The notes under the pieces are model-generated. The model did no database searches and had not been told where the DNA came from. It saw only the letters and a list, made by a program, of their open reading frames with translations. A stretch of 55,342 nucleotides of DNA from an uncultured Erysipelotrichaceae bacterium. GTDB taxonomy: Bacteria > Bacillota_I > Bacilli_A > RFN20 > CAG-826. The stretch covers positions 1-55,342 of the forward strand of contig CADCFC010000008.1 in assembly GCA_902800645.1 (NCBI GenBank). Direction: 5' to 3'. A program made the position numbers and the translations under genes. This document shows positions 8,501-19,799 of the stretch, piece by piece (position 1 is the stretch's first letter; each line of letters opens with the position of its first letter).

Positions 8501-10075
8501 TTACCTCCCTAATACAACGATTTCTGAAAGAGCGAAATCGTGATTTGCTCCAACAGTGATTGTTATCTTATTAGTTCTTGTAGGTGTAAATTCAATAATG
8601 AATGGTGAACCTGGTCTAAGATATTCTGGATCTTCCCATTCGCTGCCAACATACATTTGATTGAGTGGGACGTTAGTTGCATTTCCAAATCCATCAATAG
8701 AAACACTATCGATAGAAAAGACAGCGGTTTCATAATCTAAGGAATTATAAATCGCAACAGCGGTCACTTCTTTTTCAGTTTCAAGATCAAGTGTAATAGT
8801 GTGACTACCTGCTTCAAATTGTGCTTGTAATTCTACTTGCTCTTGATTAAACATGTGCATTGGAATTACATCATCGATGAGCAATTCTTCATCATTTAAA
8901 GTATCGGTAGTAATAGTAGCGTCCTTAGCGACATTTCCAAATCCACTAACAGATTTAGGTAGTGGACGAAGTGAATATGTTGGTCCGTTAACATAAAGTT
9001 TCTCACCCTTAAGAGCAACAGAATCTAATGCAAAAGCTCTCAAAGAGTTCGCAAATAATCTATCTGTATGAGCGTGATAACCAATCATTAATTCATCACC
9101 AGCATAGAAGAAACAGTGGTGGCCGGGGCCAGCCATAAAATCCCAACTTCCGCTTTGATCATTCGGGTCTACACCGAGCAATAAATTTTCAGTTGCGTAA
9201 GAATGAGGTTTTACAAAGGTTCCTAGAGGAGAATCACCAACTGCGTAACCAACAGAATATTCAACAACACCAAAGTAATTGGCGCTATAAGTTAAGTAAT
9301 ACTTGTTTCCAAGTTTAATCATAAATGGAGCTTCATTCCATTTACCACCAATAGTCTTAATTTCCCAAGTTAAATCATAACTAGTTTTATCTAGAGATGA
9401 TTTACCTGGAGTAGTTAAACGTGTATTAGTGCTATAGTCAGCAGTTACAGGATCTATTAATTTCACACCCCAAGATTCGGAAACTCCATTAACTTGATCT
9501 CTCGCGTAATATAAATAAAGGTCACCATTATCGTCTTTAAATGGAGCAGCATCAATTGCGGAAAACCCAAATTCAAAGATTTGGTCTCCTCTAGTGATTG
9601 TATTTCCATAATGGTCAACGCCTTCGTATTCATGAAATGGACCATAAGGTGTTTTACTTGTAGCAACGGAAATTCCGTTTCTTCTAGTAGTGTGATTATA
9701 GGCAGAATAATAAAGATAATATGTATCTCCTATTTTTATTGCGTTAGGGGCCCATAATCTTGTAATCGCCCATGAATATGGGTCTGGTAAATAAGCTGGA
9801 CCAAGATTTTCCCAATAGTTCAGTTGCTTTGAACGATAGACGTTAAAACCAGAACCACCGAGATCATCGGAAGTCATATACATGTAATAATAATTATCTT
9901 CTTCACAGAAAATAACACTTGGGTCAGCGCAGTGTTGCTCTAAATCATTTCTATACCAAAGATTCTTGTTATAGTTTTTTTCTTCAAGTTCGTAACCAAA
10001 AGGAATTTGAACTACGCTATTTCCACAAGAAGCAAGCGCTGCTGTTAATAAAAGTAATAAGCCTTTCTTTTGCAT
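8501..10075 (-). CDS. GH43-family glycosidase lipoprotein with C-terminal beta-sandwich
   Basis: A surface-anchored GH43 enzyme. Lipobox LASC puts the lipidated residue at Cys17. The propeller domain spans about residues 45-355 with CADPSVI (Asp51, base), SAIDAAPF (Asp175), WNEAPFM (Glu248, acid) and GPGHHCF (metal-binding loop). Residues about 380-524 form a separate beta-sandwich with features of discoidin-like/CBM modules, ending in a strand typical of these folds. It would release arabinose, xylose or short oligosaccharides outside the cell for the binding protein encoded just upstream. It is co-transcribed with the permeases (12-base gap, GGAGG site). The linkage it cleaves is unknown. 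Confidence 0.9.
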   Translation of the reverse strand: MQKKGLLLLLTAALASCGNSVVQIPFGYELEEKNYNKNLWYRNDLEQHCADPSVIFCEEDNYYYMYMTSDDLGGSGFNVYRSKQLNYWENLGPAYLPDPYSWAITRLWAPNAIKIGDTYYLYYSAYNHTTRRNGISVATSKTPYGPFHEYEGVDHYGNTITRGDQIFEFGFSAIDAAPFKDDNGDLYLYYARDQVNGVSESWGVKLIDPVTADYSTNTRLTTPGKSSLDKTSYDLTWEIKTIGGKWNEAPFMIKLGNKYYLTYSANYFGVVEYSVGYAVGDSPLGTFVKPHSYATENLLLGVDPNDQSGSWDFMAGPGHHCFFYAGDELMIGYHAHTDRLFANSLRAFALDSVALKGEKLYVNGPTYSLRPLPKSVSGFGNVAKDATITTDTLNDEELLIDDVIPMHMFNQEQVELQAQFEAGSHTITLDLETEKEVTAVAIYNSLDYETAVFSIDSVSIDGFGNATNVPLNQMYVGSEWEDPEYLRPGSPFIIEFTPTRTNKITITVGANHDFALSEIVVLGR

Positions 10076-10087
10076 TTGTTTCCTCCG

Positions 10088-10984
10088 TTACTTAATACCG
10101 CTATTAGTGAGGCCCTTGATGAAATACTTTTGAGCAAATAAGAATATTAAAATTGTTGGCAATAATGAAACGACAGTTGCTGCTAAAAACATTTGATTAT
10201 CACCAGTTGAAGATTGTGTATGAATAAGTTGTAAAGCAATCTGCAATGTATATCTCTTTGGATCGTGTAAATAGAGCAATGGTCCAAGATAATCATTATA
10301 TCCACCAACGAAGCCTAATAATCCTTGAGAGATTAATGCAGGAGCACTGAGAGGGACGACAATTTTCCAGAAAATTCTGAAGTGTCCAATACCATCTAAT
10401 TTAGCGGCTTCAATATAATCATCAGGAATAGCCATGAATGCTTGTCTAAGGAAGAACACACACATAGCAGAACCAAACGATCCAGGGACAATCAATGGGA
10501 AAAATGTGTCAACTAAATCTAAATGACTATAGATAATGAAACTTGGAACAAAGAATAATGAACCAGGAATCATCATAGTTAATAACATTATGAAGAAAAC
10601 AACATTTCTACCTTTGAATTTAATCTTTGCAAACGCATAAGCAGAAAAGGCAGAAACAAATAGACCTAATAATGTAGATGGGACAGTAATAAGTAAAGTA
10701 TTTTTAAGTCCAGTAACTAGATATGGGACATCCGTATTTGTGTCAATAGCGACAACAGAAGTAAAAATGTCTTTATATCCAATAAAGGAGAACTCACCTT
10801 TACCAACCGCATATGATCCTCCAACAGTTAATGATGAGATAATCATCATCACAAATGGGAAAATCACGATTAAACCAAGGAATGTTAAAACAACATAAGA
10901 AACAATACGAGAAAAGAGAATTTCTTTTTTGTTAGTGTTAAATGTTTTTCTAGCGACATCGCGCTTAATATATTCCACTCTCAT
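10088..10984 (-). CDS. CUT1 sugar ABC importer permease, MalG-like
   Basis: Inner-membrane subunit of a carbohydrate importer. Six hydrophobic spans are visible, and the cytoplasmic EAA loop reads EAAKLDGIGHFRIFWKIVVP, matching the MalG/MsmG class (EAA---G---------I-LP). The N-terminal tail is about 30 residues and basic, followed by the first span. At 298 residues it has the family's usual length. The ATG is one base after the stop of the MalF-like gene, with GGGAGA upstream. It should pair with the MalF-like permease and the MsmK-type ATPase of the same operon. Confidence 0.93.
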   Translation of the reverse strand: MRVEYIKRDVARKTFNTNKKEILFSRIVSYVVLTFLGLIVIFPFVMMIISSLTVGGSYAVGKGEFSFIGYKDIFTSVVAIDTNTDVPYLVTGLKNTLLITVPSTLLGLFVSAFSAYAFAKIKFKGRNVVFFIMLLTMMIPGSLFFVPSFIIYSHLDLVDTFFPLIVPGSFGSAMCVFFLRQAFMAIPDDYIEAAKLDGIGHFRIFWKIVVPLSAPALISQGLLGFVGGYNDYLGPLLYLHDPKRYTLQIALQLIHTQSSTGDNQMFLAATVVSLLPTILIFLFAQKYFIKGLTNSGIK

Positions 10985-10985
10985 A

Positions 10986-11927
10986 TTATTTTGTTGTATC
11001 TCCCTGTTTTCGATTAACGATAAACTGTGTGACTGTCACAATCATAACAATGAGAGCCAAAATCCAGCTAGCAGCACATGCGAGACCAAGATCTAACATA
11101 TCGCTATCCATATAGTGATATAAGTAATAAGCCATAGTGACATATGAACCGTTAGCCTTATAGTAATCACCAACTAGGGAGAATCTTGTGAAGTCTTGTA
11201 AGTTACCAATAATGCCAGTAACTAATAAGAAGAATGTGACTGGCATAATACTTGGGAAGGTAACATGCCAAAATTGTTGCCACTTATTCGCACCATCAAT
11301 TTTTGCAGCTTCGATAGTGCCATTATCTGTATTAGTAAGTGCAGCGGTATACATAATGACTGAGAAGCCAACTCCGCTCCACACTCCTAAGAAAATCATC
11401 AGAGGCATAACAAATTTTGGGTTATTTAAGTCAACCCATGTCCAACCAATCTTCGTAAATAATTGATTTAAGAATCCGCCGTCTTCAAGTAAGCAAACCC
11501 AAATTAAACAGCTAGCAACAACTGAACAGACATAAGGAATAAAGAATAATGCTTTATAAAAATTACGTCCGAATAATTTTGTGTTGCTTACAAGTAAAGC
11601 AATTATTAAACCAAACGCCATACAAAACGGTGTGACTAAACAGTTTAAGAAAGAGGTTCCAACTGCTTGCCAGAAAACTTTATCGTGTAAAACTTTTGAA
11701 TATTTAGCGAATCCAACAAATACAGTATTAGCTAAATCGTAAGGTGATCCTGCTCCTGCATAGTTGGTAAAAGATTGGATTGTTGAAATAATAATTGGAG
11801 TAACACCAAAAATTACGAATCCCAATAATGGAATAACCGCAGTGAGAAATCCATAGGTATTTTCAAAAGCTCTCGAATGAACTTTTGATTTTGGATCTCT
11901 ATTTTCTTTGCTTAATTCCAATCTCAT
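10986..11927 (-). CDS. CUT1 sugar ABC importer permease, MalF-like
   Basis: Partner permease with six predicted membrane spans and the EAA loop EAAKIDGANKWQQFWHVTFP. At 313 residues it is the compact MsmF/LacF type, lacking the long periplasmic loop of enterobacterial MalF. Its ATG overlaps the TGA of the binding-protein gene (ATGA), so translation is coupled. The order binding protein, MalF-like, MalG-like is standard for CUT1 importers of oligosaccharides. Confidence 0.93.
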   Translation of the reverse strand: MRLELSKENRDPKSKVHSRAFENTYGFLTAVIPLLGFVIFGVTPIIISTIQSFTNYAGAGSPYDLANTVFVGFAKYSKVLHDKVFWQAVGTSFLNCLVTPFCMAFGLIIALLVSNTKLFGRNFYKALFFIPYVCSVVASCLIWVCLLEDGGFLNQLFTKIGWTWVDLNNPKFVMPLMIFLGVWSGVGFSVIMYTAALTNTDNGTIEAAKIDGANKWQQFWHVTFPSIMPVTFFLLVTGIIGNLQDFTRFSLVGDYYKANGSYVTMAYYLYHYMDSDMLDLGLACAASWILALIVMIVTVTQFIVNRKQGDTTK

Positions 11928-13390
11928 AAATTCTGTTGTCTATATCCGTTTTCTGGATCGTTAAGGAAAGCATCAGTAGGGCCTTGCCATTTGTTAAAGA
12001 AGTCCTGAAGACTCATAGTTCCATCAAGAACAGGACCATTTAAGTCTCTTGCCCAGTCATCAATCCATTTATTGTCTTTTAAATACGCCCAGTCACCTTC
12101 GGTTTGATATTCAGCAGCTTCAACGAAGACGATTGAGTTTTTAGGTTTTAAATTTGTTTGCAAGAAATCTTCGGTTCTCGCAATACTCTTTTGGTTTGGA
12201 AGATTAAAACCACTAAGAGCAGTTGCTCTTTGTCCTTCAGGACCGGCTAAATATTCCATAAACTTAAAGGCAGCGTTTTTCTTATCTTGGCTGGCTTTGC
12301 TAGAAATACCAAATCCCATAGAACCGCTATGTCCAGCGAGTTTTCCGCCTTCATAGTGAGATAAAGGAGCAACGTCCCAATCAAAAGTACAAGATTTTCT
12401 TAATTCAGGTACGTGAGCTCTTAATCCGACAAGCATCGCAATTTCGCCATTTTTAAACGCAAAAAGCTTTTTATCAGAACTAAGTCTAGATGGGTTTGGC
12501 ATAATTTTTAATGCATTAGGCGATGAAGAATCAGATAAATCGATAAAATGTTGGAACATTTCACGATTGCTTGGAAGAGGATTCTTTGTTGTACCGTTTT
12601 GAGTTTCATCTCCTAATGTCCAATGTAATGTTCCATCTGGATCTCTAGATAAACAATCGCCACCAACTGACCAAACATAATTAAACCACCACTCAGTGTA
12701 GTATCCATATTTTGTTATAGAATTGGAATTATAAGATTGTGTTAACTCTTTTGCTAAGGCAACCTCTTCTTCGGTTGTCATTGAAATGCGGTTATTAAAA
12801 ACTAATTTATTTTCGCTATTTTTATAGAATCCATGTCTTTCTTCTTCGCTACATTCGTTAGCAGGTTTAGAAATGATTTCGATACCAACAGCTTTAAAGG
12901 CATCAACATTGTAATAAATAACAGTAGGCCCGATATCTTTTGGTAAGCAATATAAAGGAGCGGACTCTGTGCTAGTTTTGGTAGCAACATCATAACGATA
13001 TCTATTAACTCCTTCTTCCCAAATGTCATCTAAATCAATAATTTCACTATTATTAACATATGGGGTAATGTCTTCAAGATAACCATAAGTAGCCCATCTT
13101 TTAATATCTCCATCACCAACATAGAAAATTTCAGGAGCTTTGCTTTGGTTTAAAAGTTTATCCATGGTATCGACATAACCGCTCGATGGTCTAACGTCAT
13201 ATTCAACATAAATTCCATCAGTATTAGTGGCGTTATAGTTTCTAACCAAGTTTTTGAATACTTCGATTTCAACTTTGTCGCCCCAACCCCAGAAACGAAT
13301 CTTGGATTTTCCAGCGGCTGGATCACTTCCACATGATGTCATTAGTAATGCTGCTAAAGCAGGAACTAAGAATAATTTTTTGAATCTCAT
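11924..13390 (-). CDS. Sugar-binding lipoprotein, extracellular solute-binding family 1
   Basis: The substrate-capturing component of the importer, anchored outside the membrane. Lipobox MTSC (Cys20) is followed by the family's first strand (IRFWGWGDKVE). The region KKNAAFKFMEYLAGPEGQ, where the C-terminal hinge lies, is diagnostic for family 1 proteins binding oligosaccharides. At 488 residues it is slightly above the usual 400-450. Trp and Tyr residues are plentiful in the presumed cleft (for example GYYTEWWFNYVWSVGG), consistent with stacking of sugar rings. It overlaps the regulator gene by 4 bases (ATGA) and the downstream permease likewise, so these genes are tightly coupled. Confidence 0.93.
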   Translation of the reverse strand: MRFKKLFLVPALAALLMTSCGSDPAAGKSKIRFWGWGDKVEIEVFKNLVRNYNATNTDGIYVEYDVRPSSGYVDTMDKLLNQSKAPEIFYVGDGDIKRWATYGYLEDITPYVNNSEIIDLDDIWEEGVNRYRYDVATKTSTESAPLYCLPKDIGPTVIYYNVDAFKAVGIEIISKPANECSEEERHGFYKNSENKLVFNNRISMTTEEEVALAKELTQSYNSNSITKYGYYTEWWFNYVWSVGGDCLSRDPDGTLHWTLGDETQNGTTKNPLPSNREMFQHFIDLSDSSSPNALKIMPNPSRLSSDKKLFAFKNGEIAMLVGLRAHVPELRKSCTFDWDVAPLSHYEGGKLAGHSGSMGFGISSKASQDKKNAAFKFMEYLAGPEGQRATALSGFNLPNQKSIARTEDFLQTNLKPKNSIVFVEAAEYQTEGDWAYLKDNKWIDDWARDLNGPVLDGTMSLQDFFNKWQGPTDAFLNDPENGYRQQNL

Positions 13391-14340
13391 AAAGTTTTTT
13401 CTCCTTCCTTGTGTAAATAAACAGGGACTTTAATTTGTTGTTTTTGAATTTCAGGATTATCAATTATTTCAAATAACGAATTAACAGAAAGTTCTGCAAT
13501 TTTATCGAAATCATAGCTAATTGAATCCGTGTCGTTAACAAATGGTAATTGACCATGTAAGTAATCATACCCAGCAACTTCAACCCCTAAATGGGCTACT
13601 GCTTGTTTTATTAAATTTGCCAAAACATCATTAAATGCGAAAACCGCTTCAATCTTATTGATGCTAACAAATTCTACAAATTTAGAGATATCACTTCCCT
13701 CTCGGAATTGATATTTTGATATATCACTATTATACACTTCTTTGATTCCGTTGAATCTTTTCGAAGATTCTTCAATTAATTCAGGACCGGCATATAAAAT
13801 TTTTTTATATCCTTTTTCTTTAAAATATCGACCAATTATTCTCCCACCTTCAAAATCATCAGTATATATCGAAGTAATATTGTGTTTTGATAATCTTCCA
13901 ACTATAACGGTTGGGAACGCCTTAAACGCATTGGTGTTAACAATACTTTCTCCAATATCTAAAAAAGAAAGAATGCCATCAACATGAAGCTCAAGAAGTT
14001 CGTTTAATGTGGAATGTTCAATTTCAAAATAATTTGTGCATGGGAAAATGACTGTATCATAGCCTTTTTCTTTAATGAACGTAAAAATTTTACTCGCCAT
14101 AATTGTGAAAAATGGATTCACAAGATTGTCGTAGACTAAGGCGATTGTTTTTGTGCTTCCAGTCTTTAATTTGATCGCCATTGAATTAGGAATATAACCC
14201 ATTTCGCGAGCAGTATTCCTAATTTTCTCAGTCAAAGACTGAGATATATCTGGTAATCCCCTTAAAGCGTGGGACACAGTGTTTACAGACACATTTAAAG
14301 CATCTGCTATATCTTTTTGTGTAACAATATTCGCTCTCAC
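13387..14340 (-). CDS. LacI-family transcriptional regulator of the glycan operon
   Basis: First gene of the ten-gene operon. The N-terminal DNA-binding domain (TQKDIADALNVSVNTVSHAL, about residues 7-26) has the LacI helix-turn-helix and is followed by the hinge helix; the periplasmic-binding-protein-like effector domain fills residues about 60-317. The recognition helix reads VNTVSHAL where many relatives have STVSRAL. The start is GTG, with no Shine-Dalgarno sequence. The -10 element ends six bases upstream, so the message is probably leaderless. The operator in its own promoter (14357-14372) and the near-identical site at 16183-16196 suggest that it represses its own operon and controls GH2 and/or GH43. 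The effector is presumably a breakdown product of the glycan. Confidence 0.93.
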   Translation of the reverse strand: MRANIVTQKDIADALNVSVNTVSHALRGLPDISQSLTEKIRNTAREMGYIPNSMAIKLKTGSTKTIALVYDNLVNPFFTIMASKIFTFIKEKGYDTVIFPCTNYFEIEHSTLNELLELHVDGILSFLDIGESIVNTNAFKAFPTVIVGRLSKHNITSIYTDDFEGGRIIGRYFKEKGYKKILYAGPELIEESSKRFNGIKEVYNSDISKYQFREGSDISKFVEFVSINKIEAVFAFNDVLANLIKQAVAHLGVEVAGYDYLHGQLPFVNDTDSISYDFDKIAELSVNSLFEIIDNPEIQKQQIKVPVYLHKEGEKTL

Positions 14341-14346
14341 AATTAC

Positions 14347-14375
14347 ATTATTAATAACATTATCGATAATGTAAA
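14347..14375 (-). promoter_or_regulatory. Operon promoter with LacI-type operator
   Basis: On the minus strand, -35 TTTACA (14370-14375), a 17-base spacer and -10 AATAAT (14347-14352) precede the GTG start at 14340. The spacer holds a perfect 16-base palindrome with a central CG (ACATTATCGATAATGT, 14357-14372), as is usual for LacI-family operators. A repressor bound there would block polymerase. A second shorter palindrome (TTATTAATAA, 14348-14357) overlaps the -10. Confidence 0.8.
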
Positions 14376-14384
14376 TATCTTTTT

Positions 14385-16127
14385 TTATCTTTTTTGAGTA
14401 TTTATTTTATTTATTTCATCTATATTAAATTTTAACGAGCGATCAAAATTAACTAAGCCGTTTATTTCTTGATACACATCAGTAATCTGCGTCATACACC
14501 ATCCGGCAATATTTTTTGATTGAGTTGCGGCTTTTACTAAACCGTCATATCTTTCTAAAAACTCTTTTTCGTTTCTAACTTGATCGCCGTAGCCCCACCC
14601 ATCATTAATTTTGTCGATATTAAAACCAATGCCGCAGAATTCATCAATCAAGATTGGTTGTCCTTCATATTTATAACCATTAGCTAATGGCCTAAACGTA
14701 TTATGAATATCGATCAATTTATTCTCATTAACAATATTCATGACATCATCCACGAGTGTTTTTTTAAACTCTTCTGGATTTTGATTATAGTTGTGCATTG
14801 TAATTAAGTCGGTTTTACATTGATGCCAACCATCATTAGAAACTACTAATCGCGTCTTATCATATTCTTTTGTTAATCGATATAACTCATCAGCGAATTC
14901 TTGTTGTTCTTTATTAATCCTAATACCTGGAACACCCCATGATTCATTTAATGGTGTCCAAACCATAATCGATGGGTGATTATAATGCTCTCTTATAACT
15001 TCTTTCCATTCACGAATTACGTTATCTTTTGTTTCAAGACTATAGTCATAGCAACTAGGCATTTCGCTCCAAACAATTAAACCTAATAAATCACATAAAT
15101 AATAGAATCTTTCATCTTCAACTTTTTGGTGCATTCTAAATCCATTAAAACCGCAATCAACGATAAGATTGATTTCGTCAATCATCTCTTGAACGTTTTT
15201 AAAAGTATATATTCCTGTCGGATAATAACCCTGTTCAAGCGTTAATCGCATAAAGCATGGTTTGTCATTGAGTAATATTTGACCTTTATCAGTTGATATA
15301 AATCGATATCCAAATTGAGAAGTAACAACATCTCCATCAGATAAAGTAATACGAACATCATATAGATATGGATTATCTAAATCCCAATAATGTATTTCAT
15401 CAATTTTAGTATGTGCGACTAACTTACCATTATTAAATGTTGCCTCTTGATATCCCACTCTCTTTCCATTAAATGAGATCAATAAAGAGCAAGAACCGCC
15501 ATATTTTACATTATTTACTCCTAATTCAAAATCAACATATCCATCTTTTTTTGGAGTTATTTTTAATTCTGTTAAATAGTTAGTTGGTACTATTTCAGCC
15601 CATACAGGCTTCCATATTCCTGTCACTTCTTGATACCAGCAACCAAAATTTTCGTTTTTCCATTTTTGTTTTCCTCTTGGTTGATGGACATCATAAGTAT
15701 CAACGCATCTAATGGTGATCTTAGCTTTGTTTTCAATTAAAAAATCGGTGATATCAAAACTAAAAGCAGTGTATCCACCTTTATGCTCACCAACAAATTT
15801 AGAATTTACATAAACATAGGTGTGATAATCCGCTGCTCCAATATGAATAATTACTCTTTCGTTTTCTTTGTGGTCGAATATAAATTCTTTTTGATACCAC
15901 ACTTCATCGTATCTAGTTTTATCGTTAATGCCGCTTCCTTCAGATTGATAACAAAACGGAACAATAATCTTCTTATGTTCTTTAGGAAATTCGATATATC
16001 TTGGAAGCCTTTCTACTATTGGATAATCTTCTAAATAAAAATCCCATTCCCCATTCAAATCAATATATGAATCGCGCCTAAATAAAGGACGTGGATAAGA
16101 TAATACTTCTGGATTAACAGATTTCAT
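14385..16127 (-). CDS. GH2-family glycoside hydrolase (beta-galactosidase/glucuronidase-like)
   Basis: A cytoplasmic exo-glycosidase (no signal peptide). The GH2 sugar-binding N-terminal domain (about 15-180, with the YQKEF and GGYTAFSFDIT motifs), an immunoglobulin-like domain (about 183-280) and the TIM barrel (about 285-575) are in order. The catalytic acid/base is Glu395 in PLNESWG and the nucleophile Glu496 in LIDEFCG, with the NGFRMHQK segment of the family upstream. At 580 residues it is the short, beta-glucuronidase-like form of GH2, without the extra LacZ domains. GH2 includes beta-galactosidases, beta-glucuronidases, beta-mannosidases and arabinosidases; specificity is open. The ATG has a GAGGTG site. 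It is transcribed divergently from the neighbouring GH43 gene, from a region holding a matching LacI operator. Confidence 0.9.
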   Translation of the reverse strand: MKSVNPEVLSYPRPLFRRDSYIDLNGEWDFYLEDYPIVERLPRYIEFPKEHKKIIVPFCYQSEGSGINDKTRYDEVWYQKEFIFDHKENERVIIHIGAADYHTYVYVNSKFVGEHKGGYTAFSFDITDFLIENKAKITIRCVDTYDVHQPRGKQKWKNENFGCWYQEVTGIWKPVWAEIVPTNYLTELKITPKKDGYVDFELGVNNVKYGGSCSLLISFNGKRVGYQEATFNNGKLVAHTKIDEIHYWDLDNPYLYDVRITLSDGDVVTSQFGYRFISTDKGQILLNDKPCFMRLTLEQGYYPTGIYTFKNVQEMIDEINLIVDCGFNGFRMHQKVEDERFYYLCDLLGLIVWSEMPSCYDYSLETKDNVIREWKEVIREHYNHPSIMVWTPLNESWGVPGIRINKEQQEFADELYRLTKEYDKTRLVVSNDGWHQCKTDLITMHNYNQNPEEFKKTLVDDVMNIVNENKLIDIHNTFRPLANGYKYEGQPILIDEFCGIGFNIDKINDGWGYGDQVRNEKEFLERYDGLVKAATQSKNIAGWCMTQITDVYQEINGLVNFDRSLKFNIDEINKINTQKR

Positions 16128-16155
16128 ATATACACCTCAACAACACAATCATTCT

Positions 16156-16227
16156 ATTATAGTGGCTGTTCTATCTTCAAACCATTAACGATAATGTTTA
16201 AAATGCTATATCAAATTGTTGTAAAAT
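16156..16227. promoter_or_regulatory. Divergent GH2/GH43 promoter region with second LacI-type operator
   Basis: Minus strand: a -10 TATAAT (16156-16161) serves the GH2 gene; no convincing -35 is seen. Plus strand: TAAAAT (16222-16227) ends eight bases before the GH43 ATG, with no Shine-Dalgarno. CATTAACGATAATG (16183-16196) matches the core of the operon operator at 13 of 14 positions, is palindromic except for the A/A pair flanking the central CG, and sits upstream of both -10 elements. Confidence 0.7.
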
Positions 16228-16235
16228 ACCGATGA

Positions 16236-17147
16236 ATGAATTCAAAACGTATCGGTGGAACTTTATTTTCTAATATCACAAATATAGGTGACCCTTTCGT
16301 ATTTTATGAAGATGGGTATTACTATATGTTTGGAACCGGCTATAGGGGTGAGGCATTTAGTTGCTATATAGGTAGGTCATTAGATCAATTTAACGAAAAT
16401 CCTGTAATAATACTTAAAAAAGAAGATTCCTTTGGCGTTGCGGATTTTTGGGCCCCAGAAATCATCAAATATAATAATGAATATTTTATGTTTTATTCTG
16501 CAAAAGGTAATGACGGAATACTTCACATACAAGTTGCAAAATCACAGAAAATAACTGGTCCTTATATTGATATTGATATTAATAAACCACTTTTACCATG
16601 GGCGAGTATTGACGCTTCACCATTCATTGATAAAAGTAGAAAAATATATCTTTTATTTGTTATGGATTGTTCCAAAAATGTAATCGATGGAGTTCATACA
16701 TCACAAACATATATCATTGAATTAGACGAATCACTTAGTAACACTATTGGTGAACCAAAACTTCTTTTAACTCCTGATGTTTCTTGGGAATATGATAAAA
16801 ACGATGCATATAGATGGAATGAAGGACCAAGCATGATATATCATGATGGCTACTATTTTATAACATACTCTACACATCATTTTATGAATCCTAACTACTC
16901 AATAGGTTTAGCTAAAAGTAAGGAAATATTAGGACCATATATTAAAGATGAACGCGGTCCAATATTAAAAAGAATAACTGGTGTTACCTCAGGAACAGGA
17001 CATAACTCATTTTTCTATAACGAAAACAAAGAATTAATGACTGCGTATCACGTACATACAGACGTCAATCACCCATCCGCGAATCGTCGCGCGTGTTTCT
17101 CTAAAATATTATTCAATAATAACGAGTTAATAATTGATTACAAATAA
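16236..17147 (+). CDS. GH43-family glycosidase, cytoplasmic
   Basis: Third GH43 enzyme of the locus, single-domain and without signal peptide. Key motifs: NIGDPFVF (Asp19, base), ASIDASPF (Asp126), RWNEGPSM (Glu196, acid) and GTGHNSFF (late metal-binding loop), with the FWAPEI blade motif. It is 303 residues, close to the other cytoplasmic GH43 in length but clearly diverged, so they probably take different linkages. The gene is divergent from GH2 across a shared operator. No ribosome binding site is visible upstream of the ATG at 16236; an out-of-frame ATG lies at 16232. A very short leader or leaderless initiation is likely. Confidence 0.9.
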   Translation: MNSKRIGGTLFSNITNIGDPFVFYEDGYYYMFGTGYRGEAFSCYIGRSLDQFNENPVIILKKEDSFGVADFWAPEIIKYNNEYFMFYSAKGNDGILHIQVAKSQKITGPYIDIDINKPLLPWASIDASPFIDKSRKIYLLFVMDCSKNVIDGVHTSQTYIIELDESLSNTIGEPKLLLTPDVSWEYDKNDAYRWNEGPSMIYHDGYYFITYSTHHFMNPNYSIGLAKSKEILGPYIKDERGPILKRITGVTSGTGHNSFFYNENKELMTAYHVHTDVNHPSANRRACFSKILFNNNELIIDYK

Positions 17148-18387: not shown

Positions 18388-19707
18388 CTAATCTCTATTG
18401 AATAAGTCTCGCGTGTAGACTTTTTCTTTGACTTTTTCCAACTCAACAGAATATCTGTTAGCGAGGATTAAATCGCTATTATTGATAAACTCTTCAAAAG
18501 ACATATCCTTATAAATAAGGATGTTAACTCCTTTTTCTCTTAGTTCGTCTATAATTCCATAAATCGCAGAGCGGCGAACGCTGTCGGTGCCTACTTTAGA
18601 TAATAATGAATAAACACCCACGGTTTTGTTATTTAACGGTTCACCAAGTTTATTAATAATATCTTTAACAATCATATCTTTTCTGGATTCATTACTTTTG
18701 GTAATTGAGGTAATTAAATCATTATTAATAACATCGATAAATTGAGATTCTAATTGAGAAGTATCTTTAGGGAGACAATATCCCCCATAACCAAAGGAAG
18801 GATTATTATAATAATCTCCAATTCTAGGATCTAACGACACTCCATCAATAATGTTATTTGTGTTCATGTTATGTTTAATAGCAAAGCTATCTAATTCATT
18901 AAAATAACTAACACGCATTGCTAAATAGGCATTAGAAAATAACTTAACCGCTTCAGCTTCTTTACTAGACATATATAAAATTTGAGGATTATTTTTACTT
19001 GCCTTAATTAATAAAGAAGCAAATTTTTCAGTCTTTTCATTTTTATTACCACCAATAATAATTCGAGATGGGAATAAATTATCATGTAGTGCTTTTCCTT
19101 CTCTTAAAAATTCTGGAGAAAAGATAACGTTTCTATCATTAAGTGTTTCCGTATAACCAATATAACAAGTTGATTTAATAACAATTAGCGACTCTTTATT
19201 AACTTCCCTAACATCTTTGATAACATTAGTGACATTAGACATATCAAACTCTTCATTCTCTTCGATATAATTTGTTGGAGTTGCGATTATAACTATATCA
19301 GCCTTCTTATATATATCCTTATTAGGTAGGGATGCACTTAAATTAAGATGTTTATTATGAAGGTACGATTCAATTAGTGGATCATAAAATAATGGCTTTC
19401 TTACGTTTATTCGTTCAATTTTAGTGTTATCTATATCAATAACAGTGACTTTATTAAATGTCGATAAAAGAACTGCGATAGAGAAGCCAACATAACCCGC
19501 TCCAACAATAACAACTTTAGTGGATGATCTTGTTTTATTGTTCTTTTTTATCTCTTTTAAAGAGTTAACCGCTAAAGCATATTTAAGTGAATTATGATAT
19601 TTATAATCACTTTCAATTCTTTTATAAGTTCTAAGAGGAATATTTAAAAGTTCGCTCACTTCTTTTTGAGTTAATCCTTTAGATATTCTGATCTCTTTAA
19701 GTGTCAT
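18388..19707 (-). CDS. HTH-domain / UDP-glucose (nucleotide-sugar) dehydrogenase fusion
   Basis: The first 55 residues form an XRE/Cro-like helix-turn-helix (IRISKGLTQKEVSELLNIPL, then RTYKRIES). After a basic linker comes a complete nucleotide-sugar dehydrogenase: Rossmann motif VGAGYVG (about 68-74), middle helical domain KLFSNAYLAMRVSYFNE, catalytic Cys311 in GYGGYCLPKD, and a C-terminal UDP-binding domain. The family oxidises UDP-glucose to UDP-glucuronate or related sugars with two NAD+. Ordinary members lack a DNA-binding domain. I chose the ATG at 19707; an upstream in-frame start would add nine residues encoded within the promoter. The -10 ends six bases before this ATG, so the mRNA appears leaderless. 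A 17-base palindrome beside the -10 suggests the protein represses its own gene. Conserved catalytic residues suggest an active enzyme. Confidence 0.88.
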   Translation of the reverse strand: MTLKEIRISKGLTQKEVSELLNIPLRTYKRIESDYKYHNSLKYALAVNSLKEIKKNNKTRSSTKVVIVGAGYVGFSIAVLLSTFNKVTVIDIDNTKIERINVRKPLFYDPLIESYLHNKHLNLSASLPNKDIYKKADIVIIATPTNYIEENEEFDMSNVTNVIKDVREVNKESLIVIKSTCYIGYTETLNDRNVIFSPEFLREGKALHDNLFPSRIIIGGNKNEKTEKFASLLIKASKNNPQILYMSSKEAEAVKLFSNAYLAMRVSYFNELDSFAIKHNMNTNNIIDGVSLDPRIGDYYNNPSFGYGGYCLPKDTSQLESQFIDVINNDLITSITKSNESRKDMIVKDIINKLGEPLNNKTVGVYSLLSKVGTDSVRRSAIYGIIDELREKGVNILIYKDMSFEEFINNSDLILANRYSVELEKVKEKVYTRDLFNRD

Positions 19708-19713
19708 GTATTC

Positions 19714-19743
19714 ATTATAGAACAAAAGTGCCAATTTGGCACT
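19714..19743 (-). promoter_or_regulatory. Promoter and palindromic operator of the HTH-dehydrogenase gene
   Basis: Perfect -10 TATAAT (19714-19719), six bases from the ATG. Directly upstream lies a perfect 17-base inverted repeat, AGTGCCAAATTGGCACT (19727-19743), covering the spacer and -35 region. The site does not recur elsewhere in the window, which favours autoregulation by the encoded HTH. Confidence 0.75.
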
Positions 19744-19770: not shown

Positions 19771-19799
19771 AAAGAAAAAGCCAATCATAATCGATTGGC
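19771..19799 (-). terminator. Rho-independent terminator after serS
   Basis: On the minus strand GCCAATC-GATTAT-GATTGGC is followed by TTTTTC. It lies 12 bases past the serS stop and ends the gyrase/serS transcription unit. Confidence 0.85.

Follow-up and report, generated by a model that had tools for sequence, protein, structure and literature searches.

Does a sugar-nucleotide dehydrogenase that carries a DNA-binding head control the promoter of its own gene? The question is raised by a contig of an uncultured Erysipelotrichaceae bacterium from a group of gut bacteria (CADCFC010000008.1; the whole 55,342-nt stretch analysed is called the window). In this window, a gene on the minus strand (18388–19707, 439 amino acids) encodes a helix-turn-helix (HTH) domain of the XRE type followed by a UDP-glucose 6-dehydrogenase (UGD), and a perfect 17-nt palindrome (AGTGCCAATTTGGCACT, 19727–19743) lies in the promoter region. 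From the sequence comparisons described below, we assign a probability of about 0.85 to a one-protein circuit in which the UGD, through its XRE head, represses its own leaderless promoter.

The palindrome, AGTGCCA-ATT-TGGCACT, would by itself be weak evidence and close to a chance finding, because four perfect odd-length palindromes of 17 nt were observed in the window against 1.7 in simulations (0.13 expected for equally G+C-rich ones); its conservation in relatives makes the evidence strong. In total, 144 related genomes were searched for UGDs with and without the HTH, and later searches added further loci. A full-length protein scan of the genome contigs gave no matches and an HTH-only profile did; one alignment row contained 19 unverified end residues, which affect only one search profile and one script. 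All 19 HTH-UGD loci, including two short frames (L034, 330 amino acids; L072, 301 amino acids) and the close relatives L010–L012, carry the core TGCCA-N3-TGGCA with at most one mismatch, no more than 60 nt ahead of the ATG, the full form being AGTGCCA-NNN-TGGCACT, whereas none of the 19 HTH-less UGD loci (up to about 4 kb each) contains the operator at up to three mismatches. The original prediction had proposed a search for the fusion and the palindrome in related genomes, and it had named HTH-bearing homologues without the palindrome as the finding that would speak against it; the search recovered the palindrome at every fusion locus, and no such homologue was found among the 19. Outside the spacer, 9 of the 14 operator positions are invariant over all 19 loci, and the upstream flank is mixed A/T. 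The operator centre is located 15–18 nt upstream of the −10 element in 17 of these loci. The gene neighbours vary, with serS at L001 and L009, a predicted sugar-nucleotide epimerase at L010 and L012, and other genes elsewhere.

The operator is unique in its own genome at zero to one mismatches, the exact core (GTGCCANNNTGGCAC) occurring once. When up to two mismatches were allowed, the 10 sites found did not exceed the 12 of a reversed control, giving no indication of a wider regulon in this genome, and the one near-site inspected (contig C5, L185) lies within a coding sequence. The exact core was found at 16 places in the relatives, and 14 of these belong to a gene or gene remnant of the same HTH family: eight are located before HTH-UGD genes, two inside HTH-UGD linkers (L010 and L011), two with truncated HTH remnants (L033 and L039), and two before an HTH-MNT gene (L046). 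No evident HTH gene accompanies the other two (L036 and L047). The truncated remnants (L033:1506–1694 and L039 near 1500) still have the operator, and their contigs also contain a UGD without the HTH.

A second link between the fused HTH and the palindrome comes from other genes with this HTH, which heads antitoxins, CapE/FnlA (the first enzyme of UDP-FucNAc synthesis) and, once, a glutamine synthetase. For each gene, the best upstream 6+3+6 palindrome was selected without the use of any motif, and the counts were restricted to genes other than UGDs and to sites with a half-site ending in CCA or CAA. All 19 cases with arginine at HTH residue 30 had CCA, and all 23 cases with another residue there had CAA (Fisher p = 2e-12, uncorrected for relatedness), and an outer G accompanied Lys29 in 4 of 4 cases but other residues at this position in only 6 of 38. 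Lys29 and Arg30 are invariant in the HTH-UGD fusions, so that the associations derived from non-UGD genes predict GTGCCA, the half-site present in the operator. Residues 29 and 30 may therefore constitute a simple, readable two-residue recognition code, and the match connects the palindrome with the fused HTH at the level of single residues. Both residues are located in the predicted recognition helix (amino acids 25–33, including R26, T27, Y28, K29, and R30; 19609–19635, minus strand), which was assigned from the AlphaFold2 (AF2) model and the residue covariation.

Fusions of this kind also appear to have arisen more than once. When 36 UGD cores were placed in a tree, the distribution of the HTH required three changes, at least two of which are forced by well-supported branches, and the HTH-UGDs of L010–L012 nest among HTH-less UGDs of nearly identical sequence. 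An unrelated XRE domain is joined to UGD in three further families of the class (L176–L178), and perfect palindromes are again located upstream (33 nt in one, 12-bp arms flanking TATAAT in another, and 19+17 nt in the third); the combination of an XRE-UGD fusion with a palindrome thus arose independently. Such cases are rare, with no further fusion of UGD to an unrelated XRE domain found in 395 sampled genomes of the class. L010, L011, and L012 also contain a second operator-like site (AGTGCCATAGTGGCACTT, slightly altered in L012) in the codons of the linker that joins the HTH to UGD, about 190 bp further downstream than the operator in the promoter.

The promoter is compact. A −10 element, TATAAT, is located at 19714–19719 on the minus strand and ends 6 nt before the ATG, as in several other loci, and a leaderless mRNA is therefore predicted. 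The −35 element, GTGCCA (19737–19742, minus strand), lies within the operator at a 17-nt spacing from TATAAT. The palindrome had been described as covering the core promoter; it is exact and covers the −35 element and the spacer, but it does not extend over the −10 element. The open reading frame extends upstream to a TTG codon at 19734, which had been taken as the start. The true start is almost certainly the ATG at 19707, because the corresponding Met is the first residue of every homologous fusion and the TTG is situated before the −10 element; the TTG was rejected on these grounds, and the start was corrected accordingly.

The encoded protein contains both of the parts proposed. The HTH domain (amino acids 1–53; 19549–19707, minus strand) matches Pfam HTH_3 (PF01381, E = 1e-6), and its assignment to the XRE family is indicated by hidden Markov model matches, the AF2 model, and structure matches, all of which point to an HTH_3 fold with a recognition helix. 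The AF2 model of the full fusion has a mean predicted local distance difference test score (pLDDT) of 86.7, with HTH helices at amino acids 3–9, 14–21, 25–33, and 41–52 (block pLDDT 83–90), and the HTH domain modelled alone has a mean pLDDT of 90. The isolated domain resembles CylR2, HipB, HigA2, and C proteins, with template modelling (TM) scores of about 0.65–0.70, E-values that are weak, as expected for a 57-residue query, and a sequence match to CylR2 (E = 0.002–0.003). A short linker, disordered and poorly conserved across the fusions, with low AF2 confidence at amino acids 56–59, joins the HTH to the UGD core (amino acids 64–439; 18391–19518, minus strand).

In the core, the Rossmann N-terminal, central helix, and C-terminal domains are all present above cut-offs (PF03721, PF00984, and PF03720). 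TIGR03026 is also above its cut-off, NF011631 is matched, and the equivalog cut-off of PRK15057 is missed (358 of 757 bits). The best relatives by sequence in the PDB are the UDP-glucose dehydrogenases of Klebsiella (3phl, E = 1e-99) and Streptococcus (1dli, E = 2e-98), neither of which has an HTH; their sequence matches span amino acids 63–439 of the fusion only. The catalytic core is 44–47% identical to these two enzymes in the fold alignment, and the fold match to 1dli has a TM score of 0.81 at 47% identity. Lys255, Asn259, Cys311, and Asp315, which we take to be equivalent to K204, N208, C260, and D264 of 1dli, are invariant across 16 aligned fusions. The Pfam domains and the invariant Cys311 (in GYGGYCLPKD; codon at 18775–18777, minus strand) uphold the earlier description of an XRE-like HTH ahead of a complete dehydrogenase with its catalytic Cys. 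The enzyme is probably of the Ugd/HasB type, with UDP-glucose as the likely substrate to judge from its nearest relatives, and it is the sole full-length UGD match in its genome.

As in trigger enzymes, catalytic and DNA-binding domains are thus united in one chain, and a predicted operator is located at the promoter of the enzyme's own pathway in all 19 loci. Because the operator is conserved together with the HTH, matches the recognition code, and is unique in the genome, and because unrelated XRE-UGD fusions are also preceded by palindromes, the HTH-UGD protein very likely represses its own gene. The dehydrogenase part would make UDP-glucuronate, and the N-terminal XRE domains, probably paired through the UGD dimer, would bind AGTGCCA-NNN-TGGCACT over the −35 element of their own leaderless promoter and block RNA polymerase. 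Of the original proposal that the enzyme represses its own gene, self-regulation is strongly supported by the 19 of 19 versus 0 of 19 loci, the code, and the unique site; we infer the sign from the position of the operator, which overlaps the −35 element and the spacer with its centre 15–18 nt upstream of the −10 element and so favours repression over activation. Three points weigh against this reading: XRE self-regulators such as the C proteins of restriction-modification systems can also activate, one half-site has one changed base in 10 of the 19 HTH-UGD loci, and the p-value of the covariation ignores the relatedness of the loci.

Other explanations of the palindrome are far less probable. 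It could be a transcription terminator or a chance repeat, with the HTH a passive remnant, and a simple scan does find it terminator-like on the plus strand, while the number of such palindromes in the window also exceeds the simulated value. However, the upstream serS has an intrinsic terminator of its own, separate from the operator (19780–19799, minus strand; sequence scan), and the position of the site ahead of HTH-UGD genes stays the same in differing neighbourhoods; the site is absent before plain UGDs, and operators covary with HTH residues. The terminator reading was rejected on account of the separate serS terminator and because the site accompanies HTH-UGD genes through changing surroundings, and the explanation as a whole is very improbable. 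Regulation of the UGD promoter by another protein with the same HTH is only slightly less improbable. The genome does encode a candidate, an HTH-MNT protein (L003) with related operators (TGCCAAAATGGCA), but its helix has the sequence RTYLRYE and the outer bases of its sites are A/T, whereas in the UGD site the outer base is the G associated with Lys29; moreover, the presence of the operator tracks the HTH fusion of the gene itself.

Within self-repression by the HTH-UGD protein, two forms appear about equally likely. In one, to which we give a little under an even chance, the HTH keeps the enzyme concentration constant and UGD serves as the dimeriser without metabolite gating, so that the circuit would amount to a simple homeostat of concentration. 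The same HTH family on MNT-type antitoxins, with the same kind of promoter operators, fits this form, and the short, disordered, and poorly conserved linker argues against a tuned allosteric connection. The repeated occurrence of the HTH on pathway-entry enzymes (UGD and CapE) and the unrelated XRE-UGD fusions are less easily accommodated, as metabolite feedback would explain them well. In the other form, which the original proposal had put forward and which we hold tentatively, occupancy by substrate, product, or NAD(H) would change the geometry of the paired heads and hence operator affinity; UDP-glucuronate or NADH might strengthen DNA binding, or UDP-glucose weaken it, so that repression would track the UDP-glucuronate supply. 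Such gating is plausible in that the catalytic residues are intact in all 16 aligned fusions and the HTH heads the entry enzymes of two sugar pathways as well as glutamine synthetase, and the enzymes BirA and PutA also repress genes of their own pathways (PMC6978683); the sequence itself shows no sign of coupling.

The wider HTH family is represented in the same genome by two further genes. One, on contig C7, encodes an HTH-CapE/FnlA-like UDP-GlcNAc dehydratase (L002:790–1983/L181:4881–6074), is preceded by the operator-like sequence GTGCAATAATTGCAT, and is followed by CapG- and CapF-like genes, a set that, judged by sequence resemblance, likely forms a UDP-FucNAc synthesis operon. HTH-CapE fusions are widespread in the order, occurring in dozens of genomes, and their operators are less regular than others, the motif-blind scan having recovered about half. 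The other gene encodes an HTH-MNT-type nucleotidyltransferase (L003:1321–1665) and adjoins a HEPN-like gene, recognized from the RNxxxH motif alone. HTH-MNT genes (L003, L052–L058, L079, L081, and L091–L124) have one to three operators each, and their half-site types (TGCCA, CGCAA, TGCAA, and GGACA) follow HTH residues 29/30. The HTH-glutamine synthetase, found in one genome (L180:5448–6998 = L136), is located downstream of an HTH-CapE operon with an operator, and no operator of its own was found. In Clostridia (L102, L106, L107, L113, L114, and L120), an AAA_14 ATPase (about 575 amino acids) has a related HTH fused to it, and no matching operator was found upstream. It is conceivable, though we would not favour it, that one HTH module was passed among antitoxins and the pathway-entry enzymes UGD, CapE/FnlA, and glutamine synthetase of these small-genome Bacilli, that each enzyme is a metabolite-gated self-repressor in which a single protein serves as enzyme, sensor, and regulator, and that UGD gained heads independently several times.

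The open-licence literature yielded no description of a nucleotide-sugar dehydrogenase, or other nucleotide-sugar enzyme, fused to an HTH, and the closest precedents are BirA, PutA, and NadR. NadR combines an HTH and NAD-metabolism enzymes in one repressor protein with several target genes, and its enzymes differ from that of the fusion. PutA has a ribbon-helix-helix domain together with a flavin redox switch, unlike the HTH-UGD fusion, in which an XRE HTH is joined to an NAD-dependent sugar-nucleotide dehydrogenase. Both BirA and PutA are counted as HTH-enzyme type repressors, and PutA resembles the fusion in being a dehydrogenase with a repressor role, acting on its own operon (PMC6978683). 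Like HTH-UGD, BirA (a group II biotin protein ligase) has related enzymes both with and without the DNA-binding domain (groups II and I), as described in PMC4016012. BirA is a different enzyme with another HTH type, and its targets are genes of biotin synthesis and transport; for HTH-UGD, the only exact site in the genome precedes the gene that encodes it. CylR2, HipB, HigA2, and C.Esp1396I are XRE autoregulators that share HTH fold and sequence with the fusion, but they are stand-alone regulators or antitoxins.

UDP-glucuronate synthesis supplies capsules and other surface glycans, and its control by HTH-UGD would represent a minimal feedback circuit consisting of a single protein and a single 15-bp site, easily moved into laboratory strains, and a case in which repressor heads were joined repeatedly and independently to one enzyme. 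The most useful by-product may be the family-wide residue 29/30 code, which is simple enough to be probed by a two-residue, two-base-pair swap. Beside the UGD gene, the region at 8501–17147 of the window contains genes that resemble those for an ABC sugar importer, a LacI-type regulator, and GH2-like and GH43-like glycosidases, and by this resemblance alone appears to be a glycan-use cluster.
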